DNA of 54,382 nt from Candidatus Andersenbacteria bacterium RIFCSPHIGHO2_02_FULL_46_16 (GTDB lineage Bacteria > Patescibacteriota > Andersenbacteria > UBA10190), in contig MHHQ01000016.1 in NCBI GenBank assembly GCA_001817065.1, forward strand, positions 1-54,382. Reading direction: 5' to 3'. Within the stretch, counting starts at the first letter, position 1, and each line of letters opens with the position of its first letter. Shown here in pieces: positions 13,468 through 44,921 of the stretch. The notes beneath the pieces are model-generated. The model ran no database searches and had not been told where the DNA came from. It saw only the letters and a list, made by a program, of their open reading frames with translations. The translations under genes and the position numbers were made by a program.

Positions 13468-14100
13468 TTAGGGGTTGAGAATGATCGTAGAGAGATTTTC
13501 ACGATCAATTTTATTGGCTAAGATGGTAATCTTTTTATTGTCCGTGCTAGGGCTGACACCCATTTCATGAGCGAACTTAGCAACGGCTTCTACCTGCTGA
13601 TTTAATTTGGGAATAGAAAAGTTTATAGGAATGACTACGTTTGGTTCGATAGTTGATATAAGATCAATGGCAGTATTGGTATCAATGCTGGTGGAACCTC
13701 CAATTGGAACAATGAGTATATCTGTGTCCGCTTGCTCTATGTTCTGAAGTTCTTCTTGTTTTAATTTTCTATTCAGTGATCCAAGATATAGCACAGTGAT
13801 ATTATCAAAAATTATCCTGAAAATGGTTTGCTCTTGATTTGTTCCATCTTTAAACCAACCGATGCCATATGTAGTGATGTTATCAAATGAACATTCACCT
13901 GGGCTATCAACGAGTATATAGTCGCCTTGTATTCCACTGGTGTGCGACATGGTTGAATCGCTAGGATTGGTCATGAAAACGAAGTCGGCTTTAGATCGAA
14001 AAGGAGGTAATCCAATATTTGGTGAATATGGATTGATTACAATAGTTGAATTGCTGTTATATATCTTCACCGTATAATGTCCAGCCCATGTAATAGTCAT
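13468..14100 (-). CDS. Metallo-beta-lactamase-fold protein lacking the metal-binding motif
   Basis: 210 residues. The start MTITWAGHYTVKIYNSNSTIVINPYS and the strands ILVDSPGECSF, IIFDNITVLYLGSL and VIPINF follow the layout of UlaG-like MBL proteins (WxGHxxxxI, then a Pro-bearing strand). Where those enzymes have the HxHxDH zinc motif, this one reads FMTNPSDSTMSH, so most metal ligands are missing and hydrolase activity is unlikely. TAAAAT lies exactly 12 bases before the ATG, suggesting a leaderless transcript. It is adjacent to gyrA with the same orientation. Function unknown; a structural or regulatory role is possible. Confidence 0.6.
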   Translation of the reverse strand: MTITWAGHYTVKIYNSNSTIVINPYSPNIGLPPFRSKADFVFMTNPSDSTMSHTSGIQGDYILVDSPGECSFDNITTYGIGWFKDGTNQEQTIFRIIFDNITVLYLGSLNRKLKQEELQNIEQADTDILIVPIGGSTSIDTNTAIDLISTIEPNVVIPINFSIPKLNQQVEAVAKFAHEMGVSPSTDNKKITILANKIDRENLSTIILNP

Positions 14101-14284
14101 GGGGCTATTTTACACGAAGTGACAATTATTATCCAATCTTTTTTATTCATAAATTGAGGTAATTTTGATCGGGCTTACGTTGGTGGCGGGAGGTTTTGTT
14201 AGGAATATTCAATTGTCATATGTGAAATGGATATAAGGGAAAATAAATTTGCAGCAATTGAAAGGATATGGCATTATATGCGCT

Positions 14285-15361
14285 ATGAGTGAGGCAATGA
14301 AATCAATCGTAGAACACAGGGAGGACATGCTCAACGTACCGAAAGTTGGGGAAATTGTCAGTGGGCAAGTAATTGATAAGGCTAGAAATGCTTTATACCT
14401 TGATTTAGGACACCTAGGCGTGGGGGTAATTTATGGACGAGAGCTACTGGAAGATAGTGAGAAGTTTCGAGAAACTAAGCTTGGTGATCAATTAAATGCG
14501 ACAATACAAAGTCTTGATAATGAAGACGAGTTAATTGAATTGTCTTTACGATCTATCTCGATTGAACAAAGCTGGAAGGAGATTAAGTCGGTATTGGAAA
14601 CAGGCAGCATTCTTGAAGTGGAAATTCTTGATGCAAATAAGGGAGGATTAATTGTACGAATCCAGGGTGTTACGGGTTTTCTACCAGTTTCACAACTAGC
14701 GCCGGATCATTATCCAAGAGTTGAGGGTGGGGACAAGAATAAAATATTGGAGCGTTTGAAAAGTTATGTGCAAGAAAAGTTCAAAGTAAAAATTATAGGG
14801 GCGGAGAGGGATTCAGAGAAATTAATTGTTTCCGAGAAGGCGGCTATCGGGGACGAGATGAGTCATATACTGAAAGACATCAATGAAGGAGATATTGTTG
14901 AAGGAGCAGTGAGTGGTATCGTAGAATTTGGCATATTTATTAAATTTAATAAGGATGAGAATGAGCTGGAGGGCTTAGTGCATATTTCAGAACTAGCCTG
15001 GCAGCGAATTGATAATCCTGGTGATATTGTGAGTGTGGGTGAAAAGATTAAAGCTAGAGTCATTGGAGTAGATGGGTTACGAATTTCCTTATCAATCAAG
15101 CAACTCCAGGATGACCCGTGGAGCGAAGTAGAGAAAAAATACAAAGTTGGAGATGAAGTTAAGGGCGAGGTCATAAAGGTTACTCCCTTTGGCGGTTTCA
15201 TTAAACTTGATGACGATATTCATGGTCTGGTGCATGTATCAGAGCTACCACCTGAATTTGCGACGGATCCAAGCAGTGTTCTAGAGGTAAGCAAAAAAAT
15301 TAAATTCAAAATTATTTCGTTACAAGCGAAGGAACATAGACTAGGCTTGAGTTTGAAATAA
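14285..15361 (+). CDS. rpsA: Four-S1-domain RNA-binding protein (ribosomal protein S1-like)
   Basis: About 358 residues from MSEAMKSIVEHREDM. Four S1 OB-folds can be followed: residues ~19-90 (GEIVSGQVIDKARNALYLDLG), ~105-190 (GSILEVEILDANKGGLIVRI, GVTGFLPVSQL), ~205-275 (GDIVEGAVSGIVEFGIFIKF, ELEGLVHISELAW) and ~285-358 (GDEVKGEVIKVTPFGGFIKL, IHGLVHVSELP). Four domains is the number common in low-domain-count S1 proteins, against six in E. coli. S1 delivers mRNA to the 30S subunit. Its relevance to leaderless mRNAs, which seem frequent here, is an inference. An upstream in-frame reading to 14249 is possible. Confidence 0.85.
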   Translation: MSEAMKSIVEHREDMLNVPKVGEIVSGQVIDKARNALYLDLGHLGVGVIYGRELLEDSEKFRETKLGDQLNATIQSLDNEDELIELSLRSISIEQSWKEIKSVLETGSILEVEILDANKGGLIVRIQGVTGFLPVSQLAPDHYPRVEGGDKNKILERLKSYVQEKFKVKIIGAERDSEKLIVSEKAAIGDEMSHILKDINEGDIVEGAVSGIVEFGIFIKFNKDENELEGLVHISELAWQRIDNPGDIVSVGEKIKARVIGVDGLRISLSIKQLQDDPWSEVEKKYKVGDEVKGEVIKVTPFGGFIKLDDDIHGLVHVSELPPEFATDPSSVLEVSKKIKFKIISLQAKEHRLGLSLK

Positions 15362-33625: not shown

Positions 33626-33675
33626 GGCTCAACCCTCGCTTGTTCTCTAATAGGAACAAAAGTGATACAATGGAA

Positions 33676-34410
33676 ATGTATTTTCTTTTTTCCATGACAA
33701 AACCGGGACCAAAACCTAGTAGAACCTCTAATCCAAGCTGGACGCCGGAGTTGGCTTACGCATGTGGATTAATTGCGACTGACGGCTCCCTTTCTAAAGA
33801 TGGTAGGCATATAAATCTGACATCTAAAGACGTGGAGCAACTCGAGACTTTTAAGAGGTGCATAGGAATTAACAATAAAATTGCATGGAAATCTAGTGGG
33901 TCATATAGAAACAGTTGTACATATGTGCAATTTGGCGATGTTGTTTTGTATAAATGGCTCATTTCTATTGGTATTACGCCAAAAAAGACTTTCACTATTG
34001 GTGTTGTAAATATTCCTGACAATTACTTTGCTGACTATTTAAGAGGTGAATTTGATGGTGATGGATCCACTCATGCTTATTGGGATACCAGATGGCACAG
34101 CAGTGTATCGCTATACTTGACTTTTGTGTGTGCTAGCAAAAAACACTTGAGATGGTTAAGAGGTGGAATAAAAAGAATGTTTAAAGCCGATGGCCTGATA
34201 CGATGTTATACAAATCATGTTCCCTATTTATTGTTTGCCAAAACAGAAGCAAGAAAGGTTTTTGAGGCGATGTATTATTCTGATGCTATCCCTTTTCTGA
34301 AGCGTAAAAAAGACAAATTTGATCGGCAATGGAGTTCTTTGGAGCAGTCACGGATTGGTAAAAGACCCGCAGGTTTTAAGGGGGGTGGTTCAATAATGCG
34401 TATAGCTTGA
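33676..34410 (+). CDS. LAGLIDADG-type homing endonuclease 1
   Basis: About 244 residues. Two LAGLIDADG-like helices are visible: LAYACGLIATDGS near residue 26 and YFADYLRGEFDGDGS near residue 120, each ending in the acidic metal-binding residue, so it is a monomeric two-motif enzyme. The second endonuclease at 40759 shares the framework (WxPELAYAxGLIAxDG, KKTFTIxxVxxPxxYFADxLRG). The gene is not inside an intron or intein. A TACAAT box 10 bases upstream suggests the ATG at 33676; ATG 33694 is an alternative. It ends 34 bases before tRNA-Leu(GAG). Confidence 0.85.
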   Translation: MYFLFSMTKPGPKPSRTSNPSWTPELAYACGLIATDGSLSKDGRHINLTSKDVEQLETFKRCIGINNKIAWKSSGSYRNSCTYVQFGDVVLYKWLISIGITPKKTFTIGVVNIPDNYFADYLRGEFDGDGSTHAYWDTRWHSSVSLYLTFVCASKKHLRWLRGGIKRMFKADGLIRCYTNHVPYLLFAKTEARKVFEAMYYSDAIPFLKRKKDKFDRQWSSLEQSRIGKRPAGFKGGGSIMRIA

Positions 34411-34444: not shown

Positions 34445-34528
34445 GCGGACGTGGAGAAACCGGCAGACTCGCAGCCTTGAGGGGGCTGTGGCCGCAAGGC
34501 CGTGTGGGTTCAAATCCCACCGTCCGCA
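34445..34528 (+). tRNA. tRNA-Leu (GAG)
   Basis: Acceptor GCGGACG/CGTCCGC, anticodon stem CAGCC/GGCTG with loop TTGAGGG (GAG), long variable arm GGCCGCAAGGCC, T-arm GTGGG-TTCAAAT-CCCAC. No encoded CCA. Confidence 0.93.
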
Positions 34529-34653
34529 CTTAGATTCGGCTCATAGCCTCGCTCAGTGTAAACACAGTTTAAAACTAGGTTCGCCCCGAACTACGTAGAG
34601 TTTGGGGCGCCCAGTACCATACGTGGTACTGGGCAAGTCATCTCGTCCGCACT
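34529..34653. other. Tandem-hairpin cassette between two copies of the tRNA-Leu 3' end
   Basis: CGTCCGCACT ends the tRNA (34521-34530) and recurs exactly at 34644-34653. Between them lie two strong hairpins: CGCCCCGAACT/AGTTTGGGGCG (34582-34609, one G-T pair) and GCCCAGTACCA-TACG-TGGTACTGGGC (34609-34634, perfect 11-pair stem). The duplicated tRNA end resembles an att-type repeat of a very small integrated element; the hairpins could also simply be terminators. Confidence 0.5.
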
Positions 34654-34754
34654 AAATTGGACTTCCCTATTTTTTGGAAGCTAAAGCAATGCAGCTACGC
34701 CACTATTTATCGGGAAGGCTTAGCGCTATTATTTGATACATTTATTGTCAGAAA

Positions 34755-34784
34755 TTGACAAATGTGTAATTCGTGTGCTATAGT
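34755..34784 (+). promoter_or_regulatory. Promoter of the TrmB-like regulator (near-leaderless)
   Basis: TTGACA (34755-34760), 18 bases, TATAGT (34779-34784). Initiation near 34791 leaves zero to three bases before the ATG at 34794. Confidence 0.65.
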
Positions 34785-34793
34785 AGCGGCAGT

Positions 34794-35555
34794 ATGGTCA
34801 ATGATCTTGAACTTGAATTGCAGAAAATCGGGCTTGATGAGCGCGAGGCTAAGGTTTATTTAGCGGCGTTGGAGCTAGGGCCCAGCCCGGTGCAGAAAAT
34901 TGCCCAGCGGGCGGGTATACCTCGTGCCACCAGTTATCTAGTACTGGATGATCTGCGGGATAAAGGGTTCATCACTACGTATGACGAGGGTAAAAAAACA
35001 TACTTTGTTGCTGAATCACCAGAACGACTGACAAATTTGGTAGATGAACGGGAAGCAGATATTAAAAGGCAAAAAGAAGTGATAAACAAACTTGTTCCGG
35101 AGCTAATTTCCCGGGGACAGTTTGAGCGGGGGCAGCGCCCGGTTGTGAGATATTATGAAGGGGCACAAGCTATTGGCGGCTTTGTGAGAGATTTACTGAC
35201 AGGTCGTGGTGGTGAAGTTCTTAATATTTTACATTTAGATCGTGCAATAAAGACATTAGAGCAGACCGGATTTCCAATAGAGAAAGTCCGCGAACGCCGA
35301 GCTAAGAATCGCATCAAGAGCCGTGTTATCTACACAGCTAATAATGGTCCGGTTAAGGGTTATTCAGCGAAGTTACGACAGGCTAAGTTTATCCCTGTGG
35401 ATCAATATCCCCTTGAGGCTGATATTAGTGTACGTGGAGATCGAGTATTCTTTATTCCTTACTCAATACCTTTGAGGGGTGTGGCAATAGAGGATAAAGC
35501 AGTTGCTAATGCCCTTAAAATGGTTTTTGAGTTGCTTTGGGATAAACTAGGGTAA
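34794..35555 (+). CDS. TrmB-like transcriptional regulator
   Basis: 253 residues. The N-terminal winged helix (LELQKIGLDEREAKVYLAALELG, VQKIAQRAGIPRATSYLVLDDLRDKGFI) is the TrmB type. It is followed by a coiled stretch (ERLTNLVDEREADIKRQKEVINKL) and a phospholipase-D-like C-terminal sensor region (VRYYEGAQAIGGFVRDLL). TrmB proteins usually sense sugars. The next transcription units (a structured RNA at 35606 and the small-gene island) are downstream on the same strand and may be its targets; this is inference. Confidence 0.85.
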   Translation: MVNDLELELQKIGLDEREAKVYLAALELGPSPVQKIAQRAGIPRATSYLVLDDLRDKGFITTYDEGKKTYFVAESPERLTNLVDEREADIKRQKEVINKLVPELISRGQFERGQRPVVRYYEGAQAIGGFVRDLLTGRGGEVLNILHLDRAIKTLEQTGFPIEKVRERRAKNRIKSRVIYTANNGPVKGYSAKLRQAKFIPVDQYPLEADISVRGDRVFFIPYSIPLRGVAIEDKAVANALKMVFELLWDKLG

Positions 35556-35570
35556 AATTTGTCAAAGAAG

Positions 35571-35599
35571 TTGACATTTATTGATATTTGGGATACACT
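35571..35599 (+). promoter_or_regulatory. Promoter of the structured ncRNA
   Basis: TTGACA (35571-35576), exactly 17 bases, TACACT (35594-35599). It has a perfect -35 and is one of the best promoters in the window. Confidence 0.7.
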
Positions 35600-35605
35600 G
35601 TTATT

Positions 35606-35798
35606 ACCTATTATTGTAAGGTACGTTCTTCAGCGCATGGCCTAGTGAGAAAGGAGGATAAAATGGGCGGAGGCTAAATTACCAGGGTGTCGAACGGTAG
35701 TGGTAACAAAGTTCTTTTGGTTCGCTAACCGTTCGACACGACGCAACAGCCCGGGACTAGACATTACACATTGTGAAGTCTGGTCACCGGGCTTTTTT
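35606..35798 (+). ncRNA. Structured RNA (about 193 nt) with a four-codon ORF and its own terminator
   Basis: Transcription from the 35571 promoter should begin near 35606. Within the RNA are AAAGGAGG and, five bases on, ATGGGCGGAGGCTAA (35663-35677), a Met-Gly-Gly-Gly ORF. Then comes a perfect 12-pair stem (GTGTCGAACGGT/ACCGTTCGACAC, 35687-35739), and finally a bipartite terminator (GCCCGG ... CCGGGC with inner ACTAGAC/GTCTGGT) followed by T6 (35749-35798). No longer ORF is present. I do not recognise it as 6S, tmRNA, RNase P or SRP RNA. It may be a stand-alone small RNA or a leader-peptide/attenuator unit for the downstream island. Confidence 0.6.
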
Positions 35799-35887
35799 AT
35801 TTATTATATATAACAGATTATGTATGTATTATATTAGCTGATTTAAGCGGATATTATAGCAATGGTGAAAATATAGTGTCATAAATC

Positions 35888-36256
35888 TTGACATAATTTT
35901 ACCGTTCTGCTAAGGTGCCCGTTACACAGAAATTTCAGAGGCAGACAGTTATCGGACAGCACCTTTCAGAAAACAACGTACATAACCTTTAACGCGGAGC
36001 CCTGGTCACATGAACTGGGTTCAGAGCCTTGGTAGCTCATTTGCCCAAAGTGGCCGGTATCAAAAGCGCTCCATCATCGTTTTAGGTTTCGTTTTGTTTT
36101 CTCAAAGGTGCTTGTTCCAGGAAATTAAAACTGGCGAGTACTTTGACAATTAAATAATTTCCCCTTTAGCTCCGAGCGTAACAGATCAAGAATGGAGTAG
36201 CTTCTGGGGGCTGAAGTGGAAATTATGCGTCAACACAGACACAAAGGGGGTAAACC
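35888..36256 (+). promoter_or_regulatory. Promoter and long structured leader of the small-gene island
   Basis: TTGACA (35888-35893), 17 bases, TAAGGT (35911-35916), then about 330 untranslated bases before the ATG at 36257. AAGGTGC near 35912 is complementary to GCACCTT near 35960, so the first ~55 bases can fold back. GGTTCAGAGCC and GAGCCCTGGTC lie further on. A long folded leader suggests RNA-level control. No riboswitch class is recognised. Confidence 0.5.
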
Positions 36257-36514
36257 ATGATCGTAAGAAATCCGGTAACGGGTACCCGGGGTTCCGATTT
36301 TGTGGATGCCCTGCCCAATGATTGGGACGAGGCATGGAAGTGGGCGGAACAGCGTGCGGGGAGCAGGGGAACGGGTGATGGCTTTGTCTCTCCTGACCTT
36401 CTGCGACGCGCGTACGTGTTCCTTTTTCAGGCGTTCGCCAGTGACTGTGGCGCCATGAAAGAGATCCAAACTCTCACGGTCACCCAGGTTGTCGAGTGGT
36501 ACCTGGATTTCTAG
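36257..36514 (+). CDS. Small acidic protein of unknown function (85 aa)
   Basis: MIVRNPVTGTRGSDFVDALP at the start; Trp-rich middle (NDWDEAWKWAEQRAG), helical C-terminus ending VTQVVEWYLDF. The start follows GGGGGT seven bases upstream. No family recognised. It is first in a plus-strand set of four small genes (36257, 36795, 37272, 37802), each with its own long 5' untranslated region, higher in GC than the flanks. The set includes a DUF1874 protein, so a phage-derived or anti-defence role is one possibility. Confidence 0.6.
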   Translation: MIVRNPVTGTRGSDFVDALPNDWDEAWKWAEQRAGSRGTGDGFVSPDLLRRAYVFLFQAFASDCGAMKEIQTLTVTQVVEWYLDF

Positions 36515-40758: not shown

Positions 40759-41451
40759 ATGCACCGGTTAGTCAATATTATTGATACAAAGTGGAGACCA
40801 GAACTGGCATATGCGATTGGCTTGATCGCGTCCGATGGCAACCTACGTAAGGATAATAAAGGAATTTGCTTTGTTTCAAAGGACAGGGAGCTTATAGATA
40901 GGTTTCGTGAATCTATTTCGCTGAAAAAGGAACCTTATAGGAGTGGTCGCGGTGGTACAAAAAAGAAAAATTATTGGACGGTTCAATTTAAGAGTAGAAA
41001 TTTTCATGATTTTCTTGTGAGTGTTGGCGTTACTCCTAAGAAATCAAAGACAATTAAGGCGGTTCAGGTACCAAACTCCTATTTTGCTGATTTTCTTCGT
41101 GGGCTTTACGACGGAGACGGTACTTTTTGGACTACTTGGGATAAGCGATGGCCTCAGAGCTTTGTTTATTATCTTGGTTTTAGTACAGCGAGCCCATATT
41201 TTGTTAGATGGCTTAAAAAGAGAATCGCAGATCAGTTTAAAGTAAAGGGTTATATTCATAATGGTGATGGAGTTTTTACAATCCGTTATGTCAAAGGGGA
41301 TTCGCGCAAATTATTTAAGGCAATGTATTATCGAAAAGGGTTATTATATCTATCCAGAAAATATCTAAAAATCAAAGAGGCGATTGATTATGATGAGCGG
41401 CTTAAAGATATTAGGATTCAGCAGAGGTCAGGTACTATAGTAGCAAGTTAA
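40759..41451 (+). CDS. LAGLIDADG-type homing endonuclease 2
   Basis: 230 residues. Two motifs: LAYAIGLIASDGN near residue 21 and YFADFLRGLYDGDGT near residue 115. Related to endonuclease 1 (33676) throughout, but well diverged. It begins 174 bases after tRNA-Val (opposite strand) and ends 81 bases before tRNA-Phe. Such enzymes cut a long recognition site and copy themselves into it; being free-standing beside tRNAs, the target may be in or near a tRNA gene. Catalytic Asp residues are intact in both motifs. Confidence 0.87.
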   Translation: MHRLVNIIDTKWRPELAYAIGLIASDGNLRKDNKGICFVSKDRELIDRFRESISLKKEPYRSGRGGTKKKNYWTVQFKSRNFHDFLVSVGVTPKKSKTIKAVQVPNSYFADFLRGLYDGDGTFWTTWDKRWPQSFVYYLGFSTASPYFVRWLKKRIADQFKVKGYIHNGDGVFTIRYVKGDSRKLFKAMYYRKGLLYLSRKYLKIKEAIDYDERLKDIRIQQRSGTIVAS

Positions 41452-41531: not shown

Positions 41532-41603
41532 GCCGCGGTAGCTCAGTGGTAGAGCACTTCGCTGAAGACGAAGGTGTCGTCAGTTCAATTCTGACCCGCG
41601 GCA
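41532..41603 (+). tRNA. tRNA-Phe (GAA)
   Basis: Acceptor GCCGCGG/CCGCGGC, anticodon loop CTGAAGA (GAA), T-arm GTCAG-TTCAATT-CTGAC. No encoded CCA. Confidence 0.95.
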
Positions 41604-41710
41604 CATAGAAACGAAAAGTGTAAAGCAAAAAATGAAAAACATTGCTTGCAGGCGATTTGTTTACAAGCTATTGATGCGTTGGCAATAATTAGGTACAAAT
41701 AATAACACTT

Positions 41711-43169: not shown

Positions 43170-43802
43170 ATGTCTAAAGACATGGGACAAATCGTTGATT
43201 TTCTGTTCGAGGTAGGGATATTGGCGGAAACACCGCGCAGTGGTTTTTATTTCCTGGGAAGCGGGAAGCAGTCGGTGGCAGAGCATGTTTGCCGTGATGT
43301 CTTCATCGGCTACGCGCTGGCACAGATGGAAAAGGGAGTAAATGTGGAGAAGGTTTTAAAAATGTGTCTCTTCCATGATTTGGCAGAAGCGCGGACGAGT
43401 GACTTGAATTATGTACACCAAAAGTATGCTAAGGCGAACGAAAGGAAGGCAGTAGGGGACGTAGCCAAGACACTCCCATTTGGCCAGGATATTTTGGAGA
43501 TACTCAGGGAATATAAGCTGCGCAGAACCAGGGAAGCTAAGCTGGCCAAGGACGCGGATAATCTAGAATGGATACTGTCCTTAAAAGAACAGGCAGATAC
43601 AGGGAACGCCAGAGCAAAAACCTGGATTCCATCGGCAGTAAAACGATTAAAGACAAAAACAGCCAAGCGGTTGGCTGGGCGTATTTTAAAAACAGGTTCT
43701 GACCATTGGTGGTTTGCGGATAAAGAGGATGAGTGGTGGGTAAGCCGAAAGAAAAAAGCCAAGCAAGCGGTTGATAAATATGCTAGTACCGCATTCTTTT
43801 AA
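43170..43802 (+). CDS. HD-domain hydrolase (YfbR/HDDC2-like), C-terminus replaced by an IS
   Basis: 210 residues from MSKDMGQIVDFLFEVGIL. The HD-type metal site is visible: QSVAEHVCRDV (first His), CLFHDLAEARTSDL (HD pair), and a later Asp in LAKDADNLEWIL. YfbR/HDDC2-like enzymes are 5'-nucleotidases for deoxynucleoside monophosphates. The IS630 insertion begins at 43786, inside the third-last group of codons. The present tail STAFF is encoded by the IS end, whereas joining across the IS gives STDPGRSDRGKGLE before a TGA at 45042. The catalytic part is intact, so the protein may still work. Confidence 0.82.
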   Translation: MSKDMGQIVDFLFEVGILAETPRSGFYFLGSGKQSVAEHVCRDVFIGYALAQMEKGVNVEKVLKMCLFHDLAEARTSDLNYVHQKYAKANERKAVGDVAKTLPFGQDILEILREYKLRRTREAKLAKDADNLEWILSLKEQADTGNARAKTWIPSAVKRLKTKTAKRLAGRILKTGSDHWWFADKEDEWWVSRKKKAKQAVDKYASTAFF

Positions 43803-44635
43803 TTAACCACACCTAACTCCCGATACAGCTCTGGAAACTTTTCCTGGGCTTTTTTCGTGGTGAACGTCCAGGTAATCTTACGCCGGTGCTGGTTGCGCCA
43901 GGCGGTGATGGCGGCGACCGTGTTTTTCAAAACAGCCTCATCTGCCAGTCTCGTTTTCAGCCCCTGGGTCTTAAGGCAGCTGATTTCACACTCTGCCATG
44001 TTCAGCCAAGAAGCATGCGTTGGCGTGTGATGGAGTGTCACACGGGCGAAGAAGGCAGCTGTTTTCTGGTCGCCCCATACTTTCGTGAGACTGCCACGCA
44101 GATGGGTATTGAGGTTGTCCAGAACCAGGTGGATATGGGCAGCGGTCCGGTGTTCCTCCATGCAGTAGTGCCAGAGAAAGTTGGCCGTGTCGGCGGCTGT
44201 TCGGCGCTCAGTGACCGCGACTGTTCGTTCACCGACCAAAGGATTAACGGCCACAAACAGATTACGCGTGCCGTTTCGTTTGTACTCGTAGTCGAGCCGG
44301 CGCACGGTGCCCGGCGCGCAAGGCTGGCCGCCCCGGGGCGTGCCGAGCAGCTGCTTGGATACTTCGTCAAAGCAATGCAGCTCGTGGCCAGCAGGAAGCG
44401 GTTCAGTGTAGAGCGCCAGGATGTCGTCCATCCGTTCCCGGAAGAGCGGCGTGAGCTTGGGGACGCACCACATTTTTTTCCCGCCAGGGCTTGAGTTCGT
44501 TCTGGATGAGCACTGCCCGGATCGGATTGAGAGACATGATCGATGTTTTGTACGTGGCATTGACTGCCTCGCGCAACGCCCGCAGCGGCCAGTGGTCGGC
44601 TCCGTCGGGAGCGTTCGTGCAGGCCGTGGCGACAA
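43799..44635 (-). CDS. IS630 transposase, second frame (DDE catalytic domain)
   Basis: The family-like part begins near KKMWCVPKLTPLFRERMDD. It carries all three catalytic residues: LHCFDEVSKQ (first Asp), HLVLDNLNTH (second Asp) and HASWLNMAECEI (Glu in WLNxxE). The codons upstream of KKMWC (MSPRPARTL) are an out-of-frame shadow of the first ORF. Intact across its length, so the element may be active if the frame shift is made. Confidence 0.87.
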   Translation of the reverse strand: MSPRPARTLPTEPTTGRCGRCARQSMPRTKHRSCLSIRSGQCSSRTNSSPGGKKMWCVPKLTPLFRERMDDILALYTEPLPAGHELHCFDEVSKQLLGTPRGGQPCAPGTVRRLDYEYKRNGTRNLFVAVNPLVGERTVAVTERRTAADTANFLWHYCMEEHRTAAHIHLVLDNLNTHLRGSLTKVWGDQKTAAFFARVTLHHTPTHASWLNMAECEISCLKTQGLKTRLADEAVLKNTVAAITAWRNQHRRKITWTFTTKKAQEKFPELYRELGVVN

Positions 44636-44921
44636 TGAAGGCTTCAGCCTCCGGCGTCAGTTTACTCGGCTGCCCACTCCGAGGCAGGTCCTGAAGGGCT
44701 GCTTGTATTGTTGCTCGCTGGCGGTACCGCTTACGCACGTCTCGTACTGTCCAGCTGGAGATTTCTAGCCGCCGGGCAATATCGTTATCCCGCAGCTTCT
44801 GGTGTGACAGCAACAGAATACGAGCCCGGATAATGACGCGGGCATGGTGGGTACCTGTCTTCGTGATCGAGGTGAGATACCGGCGCTCTGGCGCCGACAG
44901 CGCCACGATGTACTTCTTCAT
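44403..44921 (-). CDS. IS630 transposase, first frame (HTH domain)
   Basis: 172 codons. Starts MKKYIVALSAPERRYLTSIT; helix-turn-helix regions (DNDIARRLEISSWTVRDVRKRY and PSKLTPEAEAFI). The useful part ends at about LKPWREK, where the frame passes into the second ORF. The A7 run at 44473-44479 is the likely shift site; the second frame is +1 relative to the first. Confidence 0.85.
   Translation of the reverse strand: MKKYIVALSAPERRYLTSITKTGTHHARVIIRARILLLSHQKLRDNDIARRLEISSWTVRDVRKRYRQRATIQAALQDLPRSGQPSKLTPEAEAFIVATACTNAPDGADHWPLRALREAVNATYKTSIMSLNPIRAVLIQNELKPWREKNVVRPQAHAALPGTDGRHPGALH

Follow-up and report, generated by a model that had tools for sequence, protein, structure and literature searches.

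A putative structured small RNA gene with a minigene-like start site beside a TrmB-family regulator gene in Candidatus Andersenbacteria

Leader-peptide attenuators of the trp/his type carry a short open reading frame (ORF) followed by hairpins and a terminator, and dual-function small RNAs such as SgrS/SgrT are structured RNAs that also carry a Shine-Dalgarno (SD) sequence and an ORF. Minigenes, or mini-ORFs, consist of a strong SD, a start codon, two to six codons and a stop, and allow ribosome docking without a real protein product; to our knowledge they occur almost solely within the leaders of longer genes, and we take phage lambda bar to be one of them. Bacterial examples include the LEE4 espADB and LEE1 ler leaders of enterohaemorrhagic Escherichia coli (EHEC), axe-txe and Bacillus subtilis ycbK, and in the EHEC LEE4 espADB mRNA the ribosome site of the mini-ORF is reported to protect the message (PMC8708949). 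The STAB-SD element of cry3A mRNA has its extended SD close to the 5' end of the transcript, where a 30S subunit can be held (PMC4113751). Here we describe an RNA unit at positions 35571-35798 of the forward strand of a 54,382-nucleotide (nt) stretch of DNA (contig MHHQ01000016.1, positions 1 to 54,382; hereafter the window) from Candidatus Andersenbacteria bacterium RIFCSPHIGHO2_02_FULL_46_16, an uncultured organism with a small genome (1.36 Mb, 98.5% complete). The unit, with a TrmB-family gene immediately on its 5' side, combines an extended SD with a tetrapeptide frame between a predicted promoter and a terminator. We regard it as very probably a real, conserved kind of element, and as a kind of RNA gene that has apparently not been described before.

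The unit opens on a putative promoter of the form TTGACA-17-TACACT (35571-35599), with the -35 hexamer at 35571-35576, a 17-nt spacer and the -10 hexamer TACACT at 35594-35599; together with the terminator, it predicts a 193-nt transcript (35606-35798). The 5' leader holds a boxA-like GTTCTT (35625-35630), and about 42 nt from the predicted transcript start lies the extended SD AGAAAGGAGG (35648-35657), a perfect 10-nt complement of the organism's own 16S rRNA 3' tail CACCTCCTTTCT, with a duplex energy of -16.4 kcal/mol. A 5-nt gap separates the SD core AAAGGAGG (35650-35657) from the mini-ORF ATG GGC GGA GGC TAA (35663-35677), which encodes Met-Gly-Gly-Gly and whose stop codon lies 9 nt 5' of a perfect 12-base-pair (bp) stem (35687-35698 with 35728-35739). 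The 29-nt loop of this stem (35699-35727) contains five further inner pairs, and the unit ends near 35798 in an intrinsic terminator with an interrupted GC-rich stem, GCCCGGG...CCGGGC, and a TTTTTT tract (35749-35798). The whole transcript (35605-35802) folds at -74.0 kcal/mol (z = -5.4, from 200 dinucleotide-shuffled sequences); with the terminator removed z is -2.2, so that much of the stability of the unit is that of its terminator. A first-pass annotation, made from the sequence alone, had listed the promoter, SD, mini-ORF, stem with its loop and terminator, each of which is present to within a base or two, and the unit has no other ORF, as it described. The promoter that it rated as of consensus quality is a good one that falls short of that rating, matching 10 of 12 consensus positions and having no extended -10. 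Its statement that the RNA matches no family known to it agrees with an Rfam search of the unit, which gave no match at gathering or relaxed thresholds. The unit is single copy in its own genome, and across the window it is the sole place where AAGGAGG precedes a start codon and an ORF of at most nine codons.

A BLASTN search with the unit in 59 relatives returned short chance matches only and no alignable homologue, and synteny finds a counterpart where DNA similarity fails. In the closest relative, G001, the region 3' of a 62%-identical TrmB orthologue contains a promoter, AGAAAGGAGGTG and the frame ATG GGA GGC GGC TGA, then some 320 nt of structured RNA body, and finally a terminator that has a similar CCCGGG stem base, the rest being unalignable. 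Both frames read MGGG* (the asterisk marking the stop) with different codons and stops, GGC GGA GGC TAA in the window and GGA GGC GGC TGA in G001, and this synonymous change of Gly codons would favour, indirectly, translation of the mini-ORF. The first-pass annotation had looked to relatives for both the stem and the mini-ORF; the mini-ORF is kept, but conservation of this particular 12-bp stem finds no support, the structured G001 body being different and longer.

Recurrence of the arrangement was counted at 67 TrmB loci of candidate-phyla bacteria, gathered from several searches, as AAGGAGG followed after 3-10 nt by ATG or GTG and an ORF of at most nine amino acids (aa), no more than 700 nt downstream of trmB. 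Fourteen of the 67 loci, which are not independent events as some come from related genera, carry such an SD, start and short ORF (11 on the same strand as trmB and three, L056, L078 and L079, convergent to it), against a mean of 0.48 and a maximum of 3 in first-order Markov sequences; outside these regions the loci comprise 237,578 bp, mainly of coding sequence, with a single match. The association is most marked in Andersenbacteria, together with some neighbouring lineages (Falkowbacteria locus L061; metagenome-assembled genome loci L055, L058 and L062). The annotation's view of a structured RNA transcribed as a unit of its own, with a mini-ORF that looks translated, is supported. The strict pattern GGAGG-N3-10-ATGGGNGGNGGNTRA matches in the own genome and G001 only, and has no match in viral contigs. 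A broader MGG pattern, run on 380 genomes from the phylum, gave short-frame candidates away from TrmB loci; those inspected were rejected, as chance occurrences in coding sequence (L121, L132, L124, L122) or as dispersed palindromic repeats in G158. An Rfam scan of 20 related loci gave as its sole match a Type III hammerhead ribozyme (RF00008, just over the cut-off) at 5000-5055 of L056, far from the unit. In the literature that we searched, TrmB-linked RNAs of Patescibacteria are nowhere described.

We collected 24 units by hand, with promoters and terminators predicted by script. The sole strongly shared word among them is the SD, GAAAGGAG occurring in 12 units against 0.13 expected, and the second word is the boxA-like GTTCTT (11 units, 2.4 expected). 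The own 16S tail reads GGATCACCTCCTTTCT; the window unit pairs with 10 nt of it and its relatives with up to 13, and the duplex between SD and tail averages -17.1 kcal/mol in the units. For 35 protein genes in the window the mean is -5.7 and the best value -12.7, even allowing each gene its most favourable start within 40 codons. A few genes for small proteins in this order have strong SDs too, so the site of the unit resembles that of a highly translated gene. Frames span 2-5 codons in 19 of the 24 units, most commonly three (MGG, MGS, MGT, MTH, MAG, MVH, MVD, MGN, MLW, MNG and MGH). The median first in-frame stop is at three codons, the two remaining frames giving 20 and 15, a count biased by our use, among several starts, of the one with the shorter frame; with the first start used in its place the figures become 5.5 codons as opposed to 9 and 8.5 (Wilcoxon p 0.016), and the unbiased test of short frames is the 67-locus count (14 against 0.48). 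Two further observations touch these features. Another tiny ORF with an extended SD lies on the minus strand at 77310 of contig C27 of the own genome, G000 (L276), where AGAAAGGAGGTG precedes ATG TTG AAA GGT CAC TGC TGC GAT TAG (MLKGHCCD*) and a terminator follows directly. Words like CGTTCTTT in short leaders (window 4864, 29080 and 47411; unit leaders) look similar to boxA antitermination elements.

Beyond the start site, the units share structure as such rather than any one fold. Without their terminators, the bodies of all 24 have negative fold z scores against dinucleotide shuffles, many of them clearly so, and their architectures differ. In the window (CCU:AGG, CAU:AUG) as in G001 (UUGGGC:GUCCAA, CCU:AGG), the 5' leader is predicted to pair with a portion of the SD region and with the start codon, the predicted mean unpaired probability of the SD being about 0.4-0.6 in both. 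Such pairing, predicted from two sequences, would allow control of ribosome docking, and for the sequestered initiation that the first-pass annotation had suggested it is a structural hint only.

These features invite comparison with several described systems. Like minigenes, it has an SD properly spaced from its start codon and a stop within six codons; unlike them, lying as they do in leaders or operons 5' of the gene they control, it is a separate, gene-free, structured promoter-to-terminator transcript tied to a TrmB locus. No ORF follows inside the unit, whose terminator comes after the mini-ORF and stem, and it is therefore not a member of the cis-leader class. It shares with STAB-SD elements an extended SD able to hold a 30S subunit near the RNA 5' end, as judged from the predicted start, and differs from them in retaining, in relatives as well, a properly spaced AUG and a quick stop. 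SgrS/SgrT likewise joins a structured RNA to an SD and an ORF, whereas the ORF of the units is typically just 2-5 codons long.

The reading we favour, at a probability of roughly 0.4, is an autonomous structured small RNA gene that contains a minigene and acts mainly in cis. The RNA would be transcribed from its own promoter beside the TrmB-family gene, perhaps under TrmB control, and its 5' part would capture a 30S subunit through the extended SD. The ribosome would make fMet-Gly-Gly-Gly and terminate at once, so that repeated docking would be confined to the 5' part and the structured 3' part would not be entered. Occupancy by ribosomes would shield or gate the RNA in cis, its level or fold following translation status, and the fast-evolving 3' structures may do lineage-specific work. 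The analogy is with the LEE4 mini-ORF and with STAB-SD elements, devices that work in this way on mRNAs, and the staging of ribosomes on the mini-ORF to control the stem, which the first-pass annotation had suggested, would fit the short distance between stop codon and stem. Several observations weigh against this reading. The promoter alone is not above chance (four promoter-like sites in a 3-kb scan, 3.5 expected), and the case for the unit consequently rests on its relatives, where unit borders and some starts were picked by script or eye, the 12-bp hairpin has no homologue, and most of 60 more distant TrmB loci have no unit and few have one. Gly-rich peptides also recur (MGGG, MGG, MGGF, MGGV), so the codons or the peptide may matter beyond docking.

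The alternative that survives best, itself unlikely, couples the minigene RNA to peptidyl-tRNA hydrolase (Pth). Short frames would release short peptidyl-tRNAs for Pth to recycle, and the RNA would in this way report or adjust the capacity of Pth or the ribosome; an anti-SD-like loop in the pth leader, ACCCCTCC, could in addition base-pair with the SD of the minigene. In E. coli, how toxic a minigene is depends on Pth, on the strength of its SD and on its being short (PMC8708949), which makes the pth link the most attractive novel reading. Family f1 has its SD unit between a second TrmB paralogue and pth in each of the eight genomes where pth was located (the own genome included, its sister locus being G000:C15 61229-63283), and the frame of the unit has at most seven codons in seven of the eight, that of G003 having 32 codons and an SD within a strong hairpin. 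The pth leader carries a hairpin with a CCCCTCC loop whose stems, in seven genomes, have changed yet stayed complementary; the loop, A[AC]CCCCTCC, is nearly invariant and reads AGCCCCTCC in G002. Against this coupling, neither the unit of the window (paralogue a) nor those of family f2 lie next to pth, the adjacency could be explained by gene order alone, and the complement between SD and loop spans just 5-6 nt and is generic. The promoter-driven pth leaders with this anti-SD-mimic loop (G000:C15 62600-62800, L280; L100, L071, L072, L066, L065 and L064 in G001, G002, G003, G007, G008 and G009, respectively) are an observation in their own right: those scanned gave no Rfam match at gathering level, and the hairpin is possibly a new RNA motif. 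A wider form of the coupling, to which we give somewhat less credence, would see a new, fast-evolving class of regulatory RNA in candidate-phyla bacteria, in which a super-SD minigene beside TrmB, and in Andersenbacteria also pth, senses ribosome or peptidyl-tRNA status, and pairing of the SD with the anti-SD loop of the pth leader couples translation capacity to the TrmB regulon.

We hold it to be equally doubtful that the unit is a micropeptide gene, in which Met-Gly-Gly-Gly-like peptides would be the product and the RNA their mRNA. Many units have Gly as their second residue, the third base of its codon being varied and each of the three stops being in use, and MGGG* is retained through a synonymous change; residues elsewhere, however, vary freely (MGS, MGT, MVH, MVD, MC, MLW, MTH), Met alone being invariant in peptides of 2-5 aa, and the long structured RNA bodies would be superfluous. 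We rank lower a sponge for 30S subunits or the anti-SD, an RNA that would titrate 30S subunits and so tune SD-dependent translation of mRNAs. The 10-13-nt complement to the 16S tail would suit it, as would the scarcity of strong-SD sites (13 GAAAGGAGG in 1.36 Mb, some at small-protein starts), but a sponge would require a very high copy number and would have no need of the start codon and quick stop that are nevertheless kept.

Still less probable is a leader-peptide attenuator, in which a ribosome on the mini-ORF would decide termination at 35749-35798 and thereby control downstream genes. Mini-ORF, hairpin and terminator do stand in series, as in trp/his attenuators, but the unit differs from these in having no pathway-tied run of regulatory codons and no downstream gene, its codons are too few and too variable to sense one tRNA, and the predicted fold offers no alternative, competing antiterminator pairing. 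Some relatives' units, moreover, are convergent to trmB, and in the window a second promoter-like element (TGTCATAAATCTTGACA, 35877-35893) precedes the next ORF at 36257. Least likely of all, and already disfavoured, is a product of chance or gene decay, in which a leftover of intergenic DNA would have a start site by accident. The ordinary promoter score and the lack of a sequence homologue by BLASTN would accord with this, but not the 14 of 67 loci that have the arrangement in the same position (0.48 by chance) or the identical MGGG* in G001.

The adjoining gene (34773-35555, forward strand) encodes a TrmB-family helix-turn-helix regulator (Pfam TrmB PF01978, E 8.7e-16) with a GTG start as listed, an alternative later GTG near 34797 being possible. 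We saw no terminator between trmB and the RNA promoter, so trmB mRNA may also extend into the unit. The palindrome TTGTCA-N5-TGACAA (34745-34761), a candidate autoregulatory operator, lies over the -35 of the trmB promoter, with a similar one 5' of G001 trmB, and TGTCA-N7-TGACA (35560-35576), a candidate TrmB operator, overlaps the -35 of the RNA promoter; G001 has the equal arrangement at its RNA promoter, TGTCAATGAACTTGACA (C9:4403-4419). In each case the -35 hexamer itself forms one half of the palindrome. With 35 strand matches, compared with two for a reversed control, the pattern TGTCA-N5-7-TTGACA is enriched in the own genome, but it was dropped as a genome-wide TrmB operator because many of its sites lie within AT-rich repeated sequence. 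Given this and the -35 overlap, the palindromes are suggestive only, and we put forward weakly that the TrmB protein may control the RNA unit through them.

Several other features of the window and genome deserve record. The second promoter-like element and TGTCATAAATCTTGACA belong to a region (35876-36256) with a long leader containing TTTCCCCTTT...GGGGGCTGAAGTGGAAA, ahead of an 85-aa ORF (36257-36514) that matches nothing in Pfam; a leader of similar make in G001 carries TTCCCCTT...AAGGGGG. A LAGLIDADG-type protein (33640-34410) lies directly 5' of tRNA-Leu(GAG) (34445-34529) and a second, LAGLIDADG-type by resemblance (40759-41451), 5' of tRNA-Phe (41532-41604), both being likely homing endonucleases near tRNA genes. 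Two overlapping minus-strand ORFs (43799-44921) resemble, by eye, a frameshifted IS630-type transposase. Elsewhere, a Group I intron (Rfam RF00028) lies in the 16S rRNA gene region at about 14039-14509 of G000:C2 (L279 140-610), and G000:C27 69046-70832 (L275) is a locus resembling those of ribosomally synthesised and post-translationally modified peptides, with a palindrome promoter TTTGTCAATAATTATTGACAAA, a strong SD, a 41-codon precursor-like ORF and a protein similar to radical S-adenosylmethionine enzymes.

A promoter-driven, terminated RNA that conserves a near-maximal docking site and a 3-5-codon frame would be a different use of the minigene device, and its site stands out all the more because the protein genes of the window make little use of the SD. 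For candidate-phyla bacteria, whose RNA biology is little known, it provides an element open to rule-based searches. The order of TrmB, minigene RNA and pth makes the old idea of a link between minigenes and peptidyl-tRNA recycling testable as natural regulation.
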